Assembly (NCBI GenBank): GCA_014871385.1
Contig: CM026425.1
Location: 3,057,561-3,121,560 of the forward strand
Source: Ceratodon purpureus
Taxonomy: Eukaryota; Streptophyta; Bryopsida; Pseudoditrichales; Ditrichaceae
Length of the DNA stretch: 64,000 bases
Direction of reading: 5' to 3'
The notes under the pieces are model-generated. The model ran no database searches. It saw only the letters and a program-made list of their open reading frames with translations, and had not been told where the DNA came from. This document shows positions 9,665 through 31,189 of the stretch, in pieces. The number at the start of each line of letters is the position of its first letter. Position 1 is the first letter of the stretch. The position numbers and the translations under genes were made by a program.

Positions 9665-12459
9665 TTACACATTAGCTCCCCTTCGGTTCTTCCCATCCCG
9701 CCAGTGACTTATTGCAGTTTGATAAGGGAACGACTCTTGCGTAAAGAATTCTTGGGCGTATATTTTCACACAGGTATCAAGGTGCCCCCCAAGTCTGTTC
9801 CGGAGCTTTGATTTCATGAAAGAGAGAGAACTAAAAGTCCTCTCATCTTCCACCGAGCCAAGCACGGCAGTTACAGCAAGCTCAGCCACCTGTATCCACT
9901 CACTGAGCCTGTTAAGCATCAGCGAATTCTGCCCAACAGTTCTCCATAGTTTCGTAAGCGGGTTCAAGTCCCGAGGCTCCTCCATTGCTGCACGAGCATT
10001 TGACCGCATGGTCAGCTTAAAGAGGGACGTCTGCAAATGCAGGGTCCTCGCATCGATCAAAGGGTCCACCTGCCGCTGCCTCGGCTCATCTTTTATGCCA
10101 TAGTTCACTGATCTGCTCACAGTGATTTTAACGTCGCAACATGGAGGGGAAAAAGCTCATCAGCATTGGCTTGCAACCAGAACTGCGGAAAAACAATAGA
10201 CAAAGCATTCATCAGATCACAGTTAGGAAATCGCAGCTCAAGGTCTTGCCGTAGCTGCAAGGAGGCCTCCCGGCACTGCGCTTTGACAGATGCGACCACC
10301 TGGTCCAGCATATCCCGGGTGACAGGCAGTTTTTTGCCCGTTACATTGCACAAAGAATGGGCACAATAAGTATGGCCGTCTATCTTGAAGGCTAAAAACT
10401 GAGCCCCGGTATTCAAATCTTCTGTCCACTCTGAGCAGATTGCATAGCTCTTGTTATCGAGTATGTCTTGGAACATCTGAAAATCAGGCCTCTGGAAAGC
10501 TGTGTCTGGATCATCATAGAGGCGGTATAGCTCTCCTTGACAGATTTTCACAGCAGCAAAATAATCACTAACGAAAACATGACGCGATTGTGCAAATTTC
10601 ATGAGAGAATTGACAGACTCCAGCAGAGGTAACAAACACGGCAGTGATAGCATTGTACCGACATCACAAAGCCTTTCGAAACACTGCCTGGCCGAGTCCC
10701 TCGCAGCTTGCTGTTTCTGTGTCATCTCTGGTTCCTTCACAGCCGCATCCTCTCCCATCTTCACTATGAGGGTCTTGTACTCACCCATGAGCCTCTTCAA
10801 TGGATCCAACAAACTTATCCACCGAGTCTTCACATTGCGCAAGATTGCTAAACCCTCTGTTTCCACCACGTCAGCAAGTTTCTGGAATTCTAGGTGTCTC
10901 TTCGAGCTATGACTGAAGTAAGAATACGTAACCTGGCACAGATCCTCCAATTTTTTCACAAGAGGAAGGTTCGACAATGGCTCCACAGCAAGATTGGTCC
11001 GGTGAGCAAAGCAATGGACCACAAAGACAAATGGTGCAACATGATTCTTTAATTGTACTCCCACCCCATTCTTACAGCCCTGGAACACCGCAACCCCGTC
11101 TGCACCGAAACACATCAATCTCTCGGCTACTTGATCTGGATTAAGTCCAGTATGGTGCTGTACCATTGTCTCAACAGCCTCACGCACAGCATTGGCATCG
11201 TTCCCCTCTACCAATCTCAACAGCGCCAAAAGGATGCTTACTCTCTTAAAACTAATGCACACATACAAATGAATCGACAACCAAGATTGGCCATCTACAG
11301 ATGTTACCTCATCAGCCGACAGGCTGAAGTATCTTGCAGCCAAAATTGTTTTCTTTGTATGCTCTGCCAAGACATGGCCTATGCTGTCCGCCATTTCCCA
11401 CCCAGCCCCAGTCGACCAGTGGTTCTTCGGACAATCCGGCACCAGCAGCTGCTCAAACAGCTCCCTCTGATTTTCGAAATCAGTCATAGGGCGGCCATGG
11501 CGTAAAAGCCAGAAAACACTCCGAAATTGCACCAATTTCCTGCGCCTCTCCATCACAGCATCCCGGGACACCATCTGAATGACAGTGTCCCCAGAAATCC
11601 CTTGCCTGGCGAAGTACGCCTTCTCGTTTCGGATATGGGCACTGTTTGCAAGGAAAAAGTACTCCCCAGCCTTCACCTTCCCCACCGTTGTCGTCGCCTT
11701 TCTCCTCCCTGCATGCTTCCACAGACTATCAATTTTAGGTACAAGCAATTTCTCACGCCCCTCTATCACTGAACAAATAGCACAACGAACTTGGACAACT
11801 TTCCCATCGCGATTTAGGACACTCTCGGCCCAGGGCAATCTGGCAGCCCACGAGTCCTGCCACTGCCGATTTGCCTCGTATCCGCGCCTCCGACGGCGGG
11901 CCAGCTCGTGCTCCGATGACCCCTCCCACGTCTCCAAAATCTCTGTTTCGTTCCGCATTGTGTCAAGAGGCGTGTCATTGCGCATGGCCGAATTGCGCAT
12001 CGCAGCTTGGGTTCGGCACCCAAGCAAGGGCCGTCGGAATTTCGCACCAACGTTCCTCAACAGCGAAGGGGGAGACTTCATCGACTGCATGGGAGGGGGG
12101 GTGATTGCAGTAACCACGCAATCGGGTTCCAAAAATTTCTCCTTCGGAGAGAAAGACTGAGCCTCCTTCTCCGAGCAGGAGGCCGTGATCGCGGGAGGGG
12201 AATCACCCCCCACCGAGAGCTGCTCCTCATCGTGATCAAAGCGGCTCCCTACTTCCGAACTCCAGCATTCCCCATCGACGTCCCCCACGTGGCCTGAAAA
12301 GAGAAATTTCGAGATCATCGACTGAGTACCCATTACACAGAAAACCCAGCAATCAAGCAAAACCCAGCAGCGACCCAAGGTAACCCAAAAACAGCAACCC
12401 CAAGGTAACCCCAAAACACAATGCAAACAAATCGCAGTTAAGAAGCGGTGCAATTGCAA
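9665..12459 (-). pseudogene. hAT-superfamily transposase, split by a frameshift
   Basis: Transposase of a cut-and-paste hAT element in the vertebrate ZNF862/ZBED-like style. The upstream frame (12459-10117; the likely true start is the Met at 12333, residue 43) carries a BED/TTF-like finger (VRCAICSVIEG, then DSLWKHAG) and the RNase-H-like core: first Asp in LSADEVTSVDG, second Asp in CFGADGVAVFQG, the CxxH of VVHCFAHRTNLA and the TRW of KTRWISLL. The reading stops at 10117-10119. A second frame, overlapping by 4 bases and reaching 9665, supplies the C-terminal dimerisation region (SVEDERTFSSLSFMKSKL), including the catalytic Glu. A one-base loss at the TTAAAATC run near 10127 explains the break, so the element is probably inactive. 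Without such a change both frames would make one protein of about 900 residues. I could not find terminal inverted repeats or an 8-bp duplication. Confidence 0.85.
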
Positions 12460-25403: not shown

Positions 25404-26833
25404 CACTACTAGAAAATCGTCTAAAAATCAACTAAAAAACAACTAAAAAGTGTTGATTCTAACACCAGACCGCATAGTTGATTACAGGGGAGGTTCCCAA
25501 GAGAATGAGCGCTCTTCTTGAAACCAAGTGAAAACTGTTGAACTCCCTGCTGGACCAAAATATGCTGTGTTGAACCAATTCTGAATCTTCAAGGCGGCTG
25601 TCTGGTATCATGAATCACGAATATACTAGGAAAATACACTTTCAAACACTATGTGCAATCATCACTTCCTGAGTACTCTACAACACAATGACCCAAGTCC
25701 AACAATTTAGTAGCGCACAGAAGAATGCACAGTGAGACTGTGTCTTTAGCAGAGGTTTTACACAAGCAATAGCGGATGTAGACCCATCTGTCAGGAACTT
25801 TGTCTCGCACCTCGAGGGGCATGTAACACCCACTTCTCAATTGACACCTAGGTGTTATCCGGCGATACAAACGTGAAATTTAGTGAAAATACCTGGGTTG
25901 ATACCTGGGAGGGTATGTGAAGAAACGAAGACGACACAAGAAAATAAACATGTACAGACATTTGTTTTGGCCTGGTTATGGTTTAGGGTTTCATTTGGAG
26001 GAAGCAAGCTAGGCGAGTGGAAGCACGAGCGAGGCTGTTACGGAGCTCACTGTCTTCGCATTGTAAGCGCCCAACCTGGTTCATCTTACTCCCTCATCTC
26101 CCTCTTATGAACAATTCTTTCAGTACTCATCTGAGTAGGAAGGTGAGCTTGCAGCAACTGTTTCTGGAATTCTGCGGAGTGGTTCATTGTGGTGTGAGAA
26201 GGAGCAGCAGATGATACTAAGGGGACAGGTATCGTATGGATTTCGAGTTTCAGGTAGGTCGATGATTTCAATTGGAACGAAGAATGTGGCGCTCATTTCT
26301 GTGAAAATACTTCGTCCCTCCTCCTTTGCCCTATCCTCCCAGCATTCTCGCTTCTATACATATCTGGTTCAAGGCTTGCTGGATTTTGCGGGATGGAGTA
26401 TTTGGTTGGGAGTAGCAGTTGAACTCGGGTTGTGAAATTCTTCCTTGGCTTACGCATAGCTTGTGTCGTTGATTGGGCATAGCTTCTGTTTCAGATAGTC
26501 TTCCAAGTTGACGATGTATATTTCCAGAGTATCGCTTCTTGAGCTTCTCATGAATTCTCGGTTGTTGAGTGCATTGCAGATACATTACCAATAGCAGACT
26601 CAATAGCGTCCCGGGTAGCGACGTAGTATTCCGGGTATCGATGTGGCCACCCAGTCACCGGGTGGTACACGCTGGAATTCTGACCTGGCATTGCACTCTC
26701 GAGACACAACAAATCAAGACAGCTCTCTTCCTGACGTGTGAATCAACTCGTCCGATTCAAGAGGAATCAACTAATTTGATCAACAGAATTCTCTTCCACA
26801 ACAGTTGATTCACCTGCGGGATTTCTAGTAGTG
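25404..26833. mobile_element. Non-autonomous CACTA (En/Spm) transposon, complete
   Basis: The left end begins CACTACTAGAAAATCG (25404) and the right end finishes ATTTCTAGTAGTG (26833), which gives a perfect 12-bp inverted repeat CACTACTAGAAA. The element is flanked on both sides by the same triplet AAC (25401-25403 and 26834-26836), the 3-bp duplication expected for CACTA insertions. Subterminal AATCAACT/AGTTGATT words occur several times near each end (25430-25490 and 26740-26812), as in known CACTA elements, where they bind transposase. The 1430-bp interior has no transposase; short frames inside are not recognisable. It would need a transposase supplied from elsewhere. Identical TIRs and intact TSD suggest a fairly recent insertion. 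Confidence 0.9.
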
Positions 26834-26989
26834 AACGTATATGATTCTACATCTCTCTGGTGATATACGATCTGTGCGGTGTGGATGGTGTTATGACTTG
26901 TTCATTTATTTAGAAGTGTTGTGACTAGTACCAGTTATCATGTTGTGATTATCTCATGCACAAAATCTTTGTACAATGCCTTGACGCTA

Positions 26990-27591
26990 CGGTTCTAAGT
27001 TGGGCTGGTTTTGATATGATAGGTCTCGCGGAACCGGTCCATTCAAGTCTGTTCACTACAGCCACAGATTTGAAACAAGGGTGTGCTGAAAATATGTTTT
27101 TAAATCTCAACATTTGGTTGGACATAATCCTATCCTTATCTTATACATAGCAATTAGGGGCTATTGATTTTACGGTTTTTAATAAGTCATTGTGTATTTT
27201 AAGGATTATTTTATTTACTTTCTATTTATTTATTATGGCTATGCAATGCTACGCACAATCGTCGACGAAAATGATAATTCCCTTGGCAAGGAACTCGGAG
27301 AGGGTTTTATCCTAGAAAAATATTAAAAAAAATCAGTGTCATGACCATCGTCATCGTCGTCGTCATTGTCATGTCCTTTGGTAAGATTGGTCTTATATGG
27401 TCGTGAAAAGAAAGAAGAGTTTGAAGTTGGAGTCGGAAACTTGAAAAGTTGTTTGAAAGGTTGTTTGAAAGGTTGTTTGAAAGGTTGTTTGAAAGGTTAT
27501 ATAGATATATAGATGGTTATTCAAAAGGTTAATGCAAAAGCTATTTCAAACAATATTTAAAAATCAATTGGCATATTTTAAGAACAAAAGC
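26990..27591 (+). repeat. Long direct repeat, left copy
   Basis: The core, 27051-27591 (541 bp), matches 30029-30582 at roughly 98 percent by eye. It includes the trinucleotide tract 'catcgtcatcgtcgtcgtc' and four tandem copies of a 12-bp unit (gttgtttgaaag) at about 27436-27497. A less similar block of about 60 bp (cggttctaagttggg to tccattcaagtct) precedes the core in both copies. No TG...CA ends, tRNA primer site or polypurine tract are seen. Confidence 0.9.
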
Positions 27592-27624
27592 TTTGTGTAG
27601 TTTCTCTTATTGTCTATCATTGCA

Positions 27625-28106
27625 ATGGCTTCCAACGGAAACTCAAATATTCCGCATAGTCTGTCTAATGAAAATGTTGTCAGTTTTTTTCAGGAAACAG
27701 TGTTAGCAACGTGGATGATGTATTTGATGCCTTCTCAACTATGAATGGGCGTGTTGAGAGGTGGGCACGGCGTTTATTTAGGGATTGGCAGGGTGCTAAC
27801 CATTACAATCATGTTCTCAAAATTGAGCAGTTTGATTTGGCTTCATTGGATTGCGACGTTCTTCTTGAATTCTTCCGTACTACTTTGAATGCTCAAGGTG
27901 GTATGTATTCTATGAATGCATTGACCGGATTAATCAATGCTTTTGACAGAATTATAAAAACAGCAGAGATGGATCGGAATGTTGATCGTGATGGTGCATA
28001 TATAGAATTTAACATTCGGACTAATGTTCTCTTCGTCAACACCATGAATGTTGTTCAAACTGCTTTGGTGGCCGTTGGAGCTAGGCAACGTCATAGTGGT
28101 CATTGA
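27625..28106 (+). CDS. Small protein resembling a tyrosine-recombinase core-binding domain
   Basis: A reading frame open from 27672 to 28106 encodes VERWARRLFRDWQ, DCDVLLEFFRTTLNAQGG, MYSMNALTGLINAFDRIIKT, and AYIEFNIRTNVLF ending in TALVAVGARQRH. The pattern 'aVxxFxxW ... LxxFFxxxxxxxGxxYsxxsLxxxxxaxdRxxk ... F......VL' is that of the N-terminal SAM-like DNA-binding domain of Crypton/DUF3504-type tyrosine recombinases, including exapted forms such as those in ZMYM2 or KIAA1958. The catalytic R-HxxR-Y domain is absent. An ATG at 27625 opens a frame (MASNGNSNIPHSLSNENVV) that joins the main frame only after a one-base shift in a T7 run (27684-27690), or by a small intron ending in TTTTTTTCAG. 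The gene lies between two long direct repeats. Function unknown; it could be a non-autonomous element's gene. Confidence 0.45.
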
Positions 28107-29890
28107 GGTATTACTTTGGATGTCGTGTATTTTGATGCAGGGTACGATAGTTTGTGTCAATGTATTAATGAGTGGCTAACTTGCTATGATGTTACGGTAT
28201 ATGTATGGTTACGAGCAATTTTCCAGTAATGAAGGATTGAAATTTAGTCTCTTACTATTCCGCTGTTGTTTTTTCCTTTACGTTTCGATGGACCTGCTTG
28301 TAATTGGTGTGGATCACGCAAGATAGGACTTTCGTATTGTCGAGCAGGAGCAGCAAGTGTGTTCTCTTCGTTAACTTGGTAGTTGGTATTTTTCGATACT
28401 TAGTTATAGAGTTTGTGAAGGCTACAGTGATATATTATCTCTAATAATGTACTCTCATAAGTCTGTAATCTGGGAATGCTACTCATTAAATGCTTACGCA
28501 TGAAGCAGTTCCCTATATTTTATGAATAAAATAATACACTTGAGATGCTTAGCACCTGCGGCAGTGTATACTTATGTGTATCTTTGTGTGTTATTGGAAT
28601 TGTGTGACAGCTGCAGAATTATTCGTCACACTAACTAAAACAATGTAATTTGTGTATTTATGGCCTATCGTGATGACGTCAAGCTGGTTTCAGGAAAGCG
28701 TGGAGGTGTTTCATTGAGGAGATACGACGGTAGCATGAAGACATGAGGTACGTTCACTTCAACCTGACGATTTAGCGCTTTTCGTCTATGTGTGTGGCCC
28801 ATACTCTTTAAAATGAATACTACTCTTTAATCAAAATCCTCCGAAGATTGACTCTTGTTATGATGTACGATCATTGTATACACGAAAGAGAAGCGGCTGC
28901 GGAAGAGTATAGACAAAAAGTTCAAAGAAGACTTGGCTAAGTGTGTCGCTTACATTGTGAGACGATCAATGTTGCGTCACTTCTTCCGTTTCTTCCAGGT
29001 ATTTCTTCGCATACCCAATGATTTCCTTTACTTGCATACGTGTGTTATCGGTCAAATCTTTGTGGAAGCGAATTGAGTTTTTCAGCATTATCTTTGTATC
29101 TAATATTAATTTATCAGATCCATGTCCAAATAACGTCTGATATATGTGTGCTTATCTAAACTCTTAGAGGCTTGCCTGCTCCTTTCCTTGGTGATATTCT
29201 ATGTGATCCAAAAATGCTCGACATATGTAATCCGTGTTTTAGGCATGATATGGGTGTGTATGTATGAATCTCTGACGGGCTATTCATGTAATCATATTGT
29301 AGGTTTTACCCGCGTTTACAAGTTAACACTGTTTTTGTTTCTATCCATGCGAAGGTATTATTTCAACCGTAATCTTGGTGAATTAGCCTCGGTTGGAAGA
29401 TGGACTGTTTGTTTTTGCATTCTTATTTGCTTATGAAACTCTGACAATCTATTTATATTTTCAATTATGTTTTTAAACCATCGTCGAAGAGTCTGATGAA
29501 TTGATGGTGGGAGTGGCAGGAGGAAGTGGATGCAAAAATACAAGCATAAGATGGAATAATTTGTATAAATGTAACATGTTATTAGATGAATTCAGTTAGC
29601 GCCTTCATTTGTATTTTTTCCTCAAATCGTGGAAAAGTAGACTTAGTTGATGTATCTATTTGTATTTTTTCCTGTAATTTCGAACAGCAACGAACTTTGT
29701 TGATCGTTTTCTGTATTATTCCTCTGATTTTCGGAATAAAGTGCGTTCTTTTCCAAGGAGGTCGTCATATTATCTTAAGAGGTCGTCGTATTCTTAGCAG
29801 CAATGATTATTTTTTTAGGCAACTGCGTCTACTACCATGTATATTCAATGCGCTCTAAGCCAATCAGAAGCGGCCAAGCTGCAAGGCAGA
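28107..29890. other. Spacer between the long direct repeats
   Basis: No recombinase catalytic domain or other gene could be read here on either strand. A short exon-like run (KFKEDLAKCVAYIVRRSMLR) occurs at about 28905-28975, in a different frame from its surroundings. A tandem-like word (atttgtattttttcct) occurs twice at about 29608-29670. Confidence 0.4.
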
Positions 29891-30582
29891 CCGCTCCGGT
29901 TCTAAGTTGGGTTGGATTTAGTATGATAGGTCTTGCAGAACCAGTCCGTTCAAGTCTCTCTGATGATACACATCTTTGTGAGCTGTCATACAATTTTAAT
30001 ACTCTAAGTTCTTCCTACCCTTGATATCGTTCATTATAGCCACAGATTTGAAATAAGGGTGTGATGAAAATATGTTTTTAAATCTCAACATTTGGTTGGA
30101 CATAATCCTATCCTTATCTTATACATAGCAATTAGGGGCTATTGATTTTACGGTTTTTAATAAGTCATTGTGTATTTTAAGGATTATTTTATTTACTTTC
30201 TATTTATTTATTATGGCTATGCAATGCTACGCACAATCGTCGACGAAAATGATAATTCCCTTGGCAAGGAACTCGGAGAGGGTTTTATCCTAGAAAAATA
30301 TTAAAAAAAATCAGTGTCATGACCATCGTCATCATCGTCGTCATTGTCATGTCCTTTGGTAAGATTGGTCTTATATGGTCGTGAAAAGAAAGAAGAGTTT
30401 GAAGTTGGAGTTGGAAACTTCAAAAGTTGTTTGAAAGGTTGTTTGAAAGGTTGTTTGAAAGGTTGTTTGAAAGGTTGTTTGAAAGGTTATATAGATATAT
30501 AGATGGTTATTCAAAAGGTTAATGCAAAAGCTATTTCAAACAATATTTAAAAATCAATTGGCATATTTTAAAAAACAAAAGC
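29891..30582 (+). repeat. Long direct repeat, right copy
   Basis: The core, 30029-30582, matches the left copy with only scattered substitutions. It has five instead of four copies of the 12-bp unit. The upstream 60-bp block (29893-29960) is also present but more diverged, and is separated from the core by about 70 bp that the left copy lacks. The two copies stop matching at the same place, just after 'acaaaagc'. Confidence 0.9.
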
Positions 30583-31189
30583 AAAACTCAACTTCATTCA
30601 TTTTTTGTCTATATTTTATTTTATTTCATTTTTATATGAATACCTTCCAGGGTAAGTCACTTAGTGCTTTTTAAAAATGACGTGCGGCATAATATAGGGA
30701 GGGTATAATTCTTTTGAAATAAATTTTATAAAAATATTCAATATAATGTAGAGTCCCATAATACTAGAAAACTGCATTAAAAATAAGGAAGATAGGCTTA
30801 AATTGTAGACAATTATTTTTTATTATTATTAATATAGGGGCTGAAGATATGGATCCTTTGAGGCATTATTACTACAATCTGTTTTCCTTCCAAGTTTGAT
30901 GGGGACTGATGAAAATAATGCAGTTTTGTAACGGAAATTATGGATGGAAAGTATGAAAAAGAGTTGAGGGTCACCTTCCCGCGTTTGCAAGTCCGCCTAG
31001 GATTCGTGTCCAGATTTGAGTCTGCGATGTTTTCTCAGAATCTGCGATGTTTTCTCAGAGTCTGCGGTTGATGCTTTTGATGAGTCTACGGTTGTTGTTC
31101 TCCTGTGTGTGCATATTGTTTTGCTACTATTGATCCCAAGGTTTTGTCAAGGTAGTCCTCCAGCTAAAGGCCGTTGATAAATCTCAGTC
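30583..31189. other. AT-rich DNA before a small open frame
   Basis: No gene. A 19-bp tandem pair (tctgcgatgttttctcaga) lies at about 31020-31060, just upstream of the next open frame. Confidence 0.5.

Follow-up and report, generated by a model that had tools for sequence, protein, structure and literature searches.

The window analysed here is a 64,000-nucleotide stretch of the genome of the moss Ceratodon purpureus (contig C5, positions 3,057,561-3,121,560; the genome was searched as 362.5 Mb in 151 contigs). It contains an open reading frame (ORF) on the plus strand at 27672-28106, with 144 open codons followed by a stop, which lies between two long direct repeats. According to alignments with related loci of the same genome, and particularly with a single-copy 7.2-kb element, L009, the ORF belongs to a short gene, here termed the accessory gene, within the candidate remnant of a Crypton-like DNA transposon. 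The features of the locus are as follows.

26985-27591, plus strand: repeat copy 1, in which the terminal core CGCTAC (TAC at 26988-26990) is directly joined to the right flank; its right edge lies inside a dispersed repeat.
27591-27592, no strand: junction between repeat copy 1 and the transposon interior, 33 bp before the accessory ATG; by eye, GC is shared with L009 at the joint.
27592-29897, plus strand: putative 5′-truncated Crypton-like relic (accessory gene, tail, and right end), from alignments to L009; the recombinase gene is absent.
27625-27744, plus strand: original start of the accessory gene (MASNGNSNIPHSLSNENVVSFF..), out of frame from a poly-T near 27690; in-frame kin read LSNG.VV.FVGNG.
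27672-28106, plus strand: predicted core-binding-type domain of the accessory gene, in a frame shifted relative to its ATG.
28381-28653, plus strand: downstream part of the accessory gene or element, 79% identical to L009 5803-6064.
28654-29571, no strand: insert of ~0.9 kb that is not in L009, with TAATTTGT on each side.
29572-29897, plus strand: element tail and right end (..GACCGCTCC), 74% identical to L009 6067-6428 (the match reaches 29900).
29892-30582, plus strand: repeat copy 2, consisting of the last element bases and the native right flank.
30252-30649, plus strand: dispersed repeat in the right flank, ending at ~30649 beside copy 2 and cut at 27591 in copy 1.

A search of the genome with the window ORF returned 26 matches, itself counted, with 43 of 43 candidates scored; 20 regions covering 24 of the 25 other matches were then extracted, C6:57183766 being left out. 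The closest paralogues share 45% and 41% identity with the ORF (E = 1.5e-21 and 1.7e-21, respectively), and its closest relatives are short genes that begin with MA..LSNG.VV.FVGNG.. and continue into a W..R.F.EW domain. Weaker matches (E from 7.1e-8 to 0.006 among the extracted regions) correspond to N-terminal exons of larger genes, and many matches fall in multi-copy elements that encode the catalytic half of a tyrosine recombinase too. A ten-row alignment of the accessory and recombinase N-terminal domains contains six invariant columns. Because of these genomic matches to recombinase N-terminal exons and the shared alignment columns, we conclude from sequence comparison that the window ORF is a core-binding-type domain and a homologue of the tyrosine-recombinase core-binding half. 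An earlier note, made from the letters of this DNA, had proposed such a domain without its catalytic half, and both points are borne out, the recombinase gene being missing from the relic. As judged from the same alignments, the ORF is a frameshifted copy of a short, core-binding-only accessory gene carried by some elements, and is also paralogous to the N-terminal half of the recombinase itself, its relationship to that half being more distant than to the accessory genes. Since the accessory gene starting at 27625 loses its frame at the poly-T, the 27672-28106 frame is its shifted remainder. Two results count against this identification: searches of Pfam and PDB with the ORF alone gave no significant match, and an AlphaFold single-sequence model reached a mean predicted local distance difference test score (pLDDT) of 38 and was discarded.

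The related loci carry the enzyme that the relic lacks. A catalytic-half exon follows the N-terminal exon in L009, L011-L014, and L018-L026; none was recognised for L027 and L028. All seven aligned catalytic exons match PF00589 (Phage_integrase) at E up to 0.1, the best at 7.1e-8, and the motifs N-K-x-x-R, G-H, and Y are invariant across them, while an R-G..E box closes the N-terminal exon in six of six recombinase rows. The R-H-R-Y catalytic set of tyrosine recombinases is thus recognisable, with K occupying the place of H in the published set (K-x-x-R). These genes contain introns, and the exons of four of them were spliced in silico at GT/AG introns (e.g., L021 and L012) before a further profile scan. 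At E up to 0.1, the spliced recombinases matched PF00589 in four of four cases (best 6.4e-8), DUF3504 in three (best 6.6e-4), and QRICH1 in two (best 0.01). The N-terminal exon is a single open frame in L012 and L014. Other observations count against the reading as a tyrosine-recombinase element. PF00589 is weak for some single catalytic exons (L021, E = 0.052), the DUF3504 and QRICH1 matches are weak and below the cut-off wherever one was displayed, PDB profile searches with A1, A2, and A3 gave no recombinase match among solved structures, and the N-terminal exon is split into separate frames in L009, the C5 copy described below, and L013. In a scan of viral contigs, A1 hit 62 patterns, none of them a relative.

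Two further features were observed around the recombinase genes. A second palindrome of 60-64 bp lies at or just upstream of the exon-1 frame, near the recombinase gene start, in L018-L022 and L024-L026. Two diverged families also have in common a frame (L040:3936-4256, minus strand, and L018:8870-9613, plus strand; MEQDPII.KGKMKIEDGS..) that is antisense to and upstream of the recombinase; it may be a cargo gene or a nested element, and Pfam gave no convincing match.

Copies of the L011 family occur on contigs C5 (10.9 kb), C2 (10.9 kb), and C9 (11.5 kb). The C5 and C2 copies are 98.7% identical across 10.9 kb, and the C5 and C9 copies are 99.1% identical across 7.7 kb, with additional pieces at 93-97%; contig C14 almost duplicates the C9 region (99.85% identity across 10 kb) and does not enter the count separately. 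In these three copies and in L009, the recombinase exons and then the accessory gene follow each other on the same strand within the element boundaries. DIRS- and Ngaro-type retrotransposons encode tyrosine recombinases too, according to the accessible sections of two articles (PMC3537659, PMC3212892), so that the parent element might be a retrotransposon of this type whose reverse transcriptase was missed. We consider this very improbable, as a Pfam scan at E 0.1 found no reverse transcriptase in any frame of at least 90 codons in two whole elements, i.e., 12 frames in L009 (7.2 kb) and 21 in the C5 element (10.9 kb), a few of which were scanned slightly shortened; the scan of whole elements was confined to these two.

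The ends of the elements outside the window are short. All 10 right ends that were read have TAC (four from the L011 family, plus L009, L019, L020, L021, L027, and L028; the count leaves out L018), and in the L011 family the flanks differ immediately beyond it. On the left, five of eight ends read TAC (C2, C9, L009, L022, and L024). In 8 of the 24 scanned loci, corresponding to six families, a self-palindrome of 94-147 bp lies at the left end or close to it; many of the 24 stop short of the left end, and L027 has none. In L011, L009, and L028, the palindrome is followed by a subterminal inverted copy of the right end (29-30 bp). The C2 copy interrupts an open frame, and its flanks joined with one TAC give 81 open codons; a COR-A match that crosses the join is weak (E = 0.0052, below the cut-off). 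Because a single TAC restores this frame, TAC is supported as the exchanged core. Several ends fit less well: the left ends of C5, L028, and L023 read TAA, TAG, and TAT, respectively; in 5 of the 10 right ends (L019-L021 and L027-L028) the flanks agree for one or two bases past TAC; the right end of L009, of which only one copy exists, was placed by analogy; and the right end of the window relic reads TCC.

The window is collinear with L009 4830-6065 starting at 27592, the first base past repeat copy 1. Its right end reads ..GACCGCTCC / GGTTCTAAG (the slash marks the element edge) and the L009 counterpart ..GACCGCTAC / GGTACC. The insert at 28654-29571 showed no similarity to the other loci compared and no obvious terminal inverted repeats. 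Altogether, the window locus is probably what decay has left of the 3′ part of a DNA transposon of the moss, moved by a tyrosine recombinase and resembling Cryptons. The relic itself is a case of ordinary decay; the finding is the element family. Another 5′-truncated copy was observed in L015 (5510-7185), which holds the accessory gene and right end only and begins ~50 bp ahead of the ATG; its flank showed no duplication of at least 120 bp, comparisons between loci other than the window having displayed matches of at least 120 bases.

The direct repeats around the ORF are 96.2% identical, gaps counted, between 27051-27591 and 30029-30582, and the homology extends leftward at 86% (26985-27050 and 29892-29957), with a 71-bp piece present in copy 2 only. 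A 19-mer taken from where the repeat begins has two occurrences in the window (with 0 and 1 mismatches), compared with an expectation of 0.00 in 100 shuffles. Copy 1 begins ..TTGACGCTAC / GGTTCTAAG; the core thus abuts the right flank, which is the shape of an unoccupied insertion site. When 27051-27591 was searched against the genome, 40 of the 369 candidates were scored, and of these the two window copies alone matched at full length. The other matches listed lie in repeat positions 178-541, nearly all of them in the dispersed repeat that starts at ~225 and that, in eight of eight comparisons, continues to 30646-30649 beside copy 2.

These data bear on what the repeats are. The earlier note was right that they are near-identical and lack the TG..CA of a long terminal repeat (LTR), as the repeat starts with CGCTAC and ends with AAAAGC; a primer site or polypurine tract was not scanned for. 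Between the repeats lie the relic and its 0.9-kb insert, not gag-pol. The reading of the repeat as an LTR, or as a unit from some repeated element, was dropped, since no other full-length copy turned up among the candidates scored and copy 1 is cut inside a dispersed repeat. The note had also offered an undescribed element with long direct ends. In this form, a non-autonomous element would use the repeats as functional ends and be mobilised in trans by the recombinase, and indeed the fragment is exactly bracketed by the repeats, both of which begin at the terminal core. However, the genome-wide check that the note had recommended gave no further full-length copy among the candidates scored, copy 1 ends within a dispersed repeat that goes on at copy 2, and the 10 right ends of the relatives are short TAC ends, with palindromes at several left ends. 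Long functional ends are therefore hardly credible, and the repeats instead look, from sequence, like a duplicated right flank rather than element termini. The suggestion of a tyrosine-recombinase element thus stands as regards the Crypton-like family, which has full recombinases in related loci, and falls as regards the repeats as its ends.

Regarding the origin of the duplication, we think it reasonably likely that the 0.6-0.7 kb direct repeats result from an exchange in which one chromosome had the empty site and the other carried the element, followed by gene conversion. The empty-site chromosome would have been joined, at the end of the flank stretch, to the element interior on the occupied chromosome by illegitimate exchange, placing the empty site and right flank ahead of the last 1.4 kb of the element. 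A single end-joining exchange of this kind would leave the repeat and relic edges that are observed. The repeats differ by 17 substitutions in 607 aligned bases, and the uneven spread of these (13 in the 112 positions beside the core vs 4 in the 495 beyond) speaks against the exchange by itself, so that a gene-conversion step has to be added, which would have homogenised most of both repeats. Alternatively, a tandem duplication of the flank may have come first, the element fragment being captured later at the junction during break repair. Such an order likewise yields flank, fragment, and flank, and the junction microhomology under it is just ~2 bp, but it requires two events and a true right end of the fragment lying exactly at the core, whereas one exchange gives the same edges; we regard it as possible but rather unlikely. 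The relic appears to keep an empty site next to an occupied one on a single chromosome.

How the family moves can be proposed in outline. By analogy with known tyrosine recombinases, the recombinase would excise the element as a circle and rejoin the DNA at the TAC core. More tentatively, the accessory protein might regulate or orient the reaction by binding the same arm sequences, which it would not cut. As a speculative extension, which we hold to be less than probable, these undescribed moss transposons would combine their recombinase with a second, core-binding-only protein and with a left end that is a long palindrome. The accessory protein would then set the direction of the reaction (excision vs integration) by entering mixed complexes with the recombinase on this palindrome, be it folded or double-stranded. 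To our knowledge, such a two-protein arrangement is not known from other eukaryotic tyrosine-recombinase elements.

The earlier note had considered a free-standing exapted domain as well, i.e., a host gene derived from a recombinase, like the ALOG genes, of which the window locus would be a duplicate. With ALOG there is a precedent in which the DNA-binding domain of a recombinase has become a plant regulator (PMC3537659, accessible sections), and the ratio of non-synonymous to synonymous substitution rates (dN/dS) of the accessory ORF between families is 0.26-0.53 (six pairs), a rough value only because dS is above 1. On the other hand, the accessory gene lies within the element boundaries beside the recombinase in near-identical dispersed copies, and the window copy is frameshifted. 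Exaptation is thus highly improbable here: since the frame is shifted from its own start, the locus is better explained as a decayed transposon gene than as an exapted host gene. No ALOG domain match was obtained at E 0.5 for the window ORF and nine relatives. One observation sits badly with a maintained accessory function, namely that the recent copies L012 and L014 differ at five non-synonymous and zero synonymous positions.

Elsewhere, the window encodes a legume-lectin receptor kinase and a leucine-rich repeat (LRR) protein. A 780-codon frame at 10117-12459 on the minus strand is transposase-like by eye and has no Pfam match at E 0.1. The stretch 26700-26836 is the end of a dispersed element: with 40 of 54 candidates scored, 34 of the 41 listed matches cover it, 19 of them at 99-100% identity. 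Rfam and tRNA scans of the window gave nothing useful.

The element family is of interest because, according to the accessible text of a May 2026 review, Cryptons have not been described in plants (PMC13317346). A review of land plants, in the parts accessible, omits DIRS elements, as these are known only from green algae (PMC9033089). A literature search on Cryptons together with mosses or bryophytes, covering titles and abstract openings with most subscription papers outside its reach, showed no report of such elements in a land plant among the papers listed. Given that the dispersed copies are near-identical and that catalytic residues are kept, tyrosine-recombinase transposons are, or were until recently, mobile in this land plant. 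The moss elements also represent a testable source of recombinase-derived plant DNA-binding domains, ALOG being the known case.

Cryptons (CryptonF, S, A, and I) have been described from fungi, oomycetes, a diatom, and animals (Kojima and Jurka 2011, PMC3212892; accessible sections, here and below); several groups have direct repeats of 4-6 bp, and as first described the elements lack terminal inverted repeats. Like Cryptons, the moss family has a tyrosine recombinase as its mobility enzyme, weakly DUF3504-like sequence, no reverse transcriptase found in the two whole elements scanned, and a short terminal direct repeat as the presumed recombination core (outside the window, TAC at all 10 right ends read and at 5 of the 8 left ones); like some Crypton groups, it carries an additional gene (PMC3212892). 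Unlike Cryptons, it resides in a plant, its core is TAC rather than 4-6 bp, and several members have a 94-134 bp palindrome at one end and an inverted copy of the other, so that the absence of terminal inverted repeats does not extend to it (the right-end copy being subterminal and inverted, and the palindrome lying on the left). Its second gene encodes a core-binding domain instead of a C48 peptidase (PMC3212892), its recombinase has K-x-x-R in place of H-x-x-R, and GCR1_C had no match in the scanned exons. We therefore use the label Crypton-like, because inverted repeats are present and the family would be placed by its features and weak DUF3504 matches, not by a tree that includes named Cryptons. 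The short moss gene resembles ALOG proteins of land plants in being a free-standing core-binding-type domain of tyrosine-recombinase origin; ALOG, however, is a host gene of DIRS1-type origin that mostly has a zinc ribbon (PMC3537659, accessible sections), whereas the moss domain gene belongs to the transposon and does not match ALOG. Finally, the Crypton-derived genes QRICH1, ZMYM, and KIAA1958 share with the moss recombinases weak QRICH1 and DUF3504 profile matches. They are animal host genes without most catalytic residues (PMC3212892), whereas the moss elements combine a short gene that has no catalytic half with a recombinase gene that keeps these residues.

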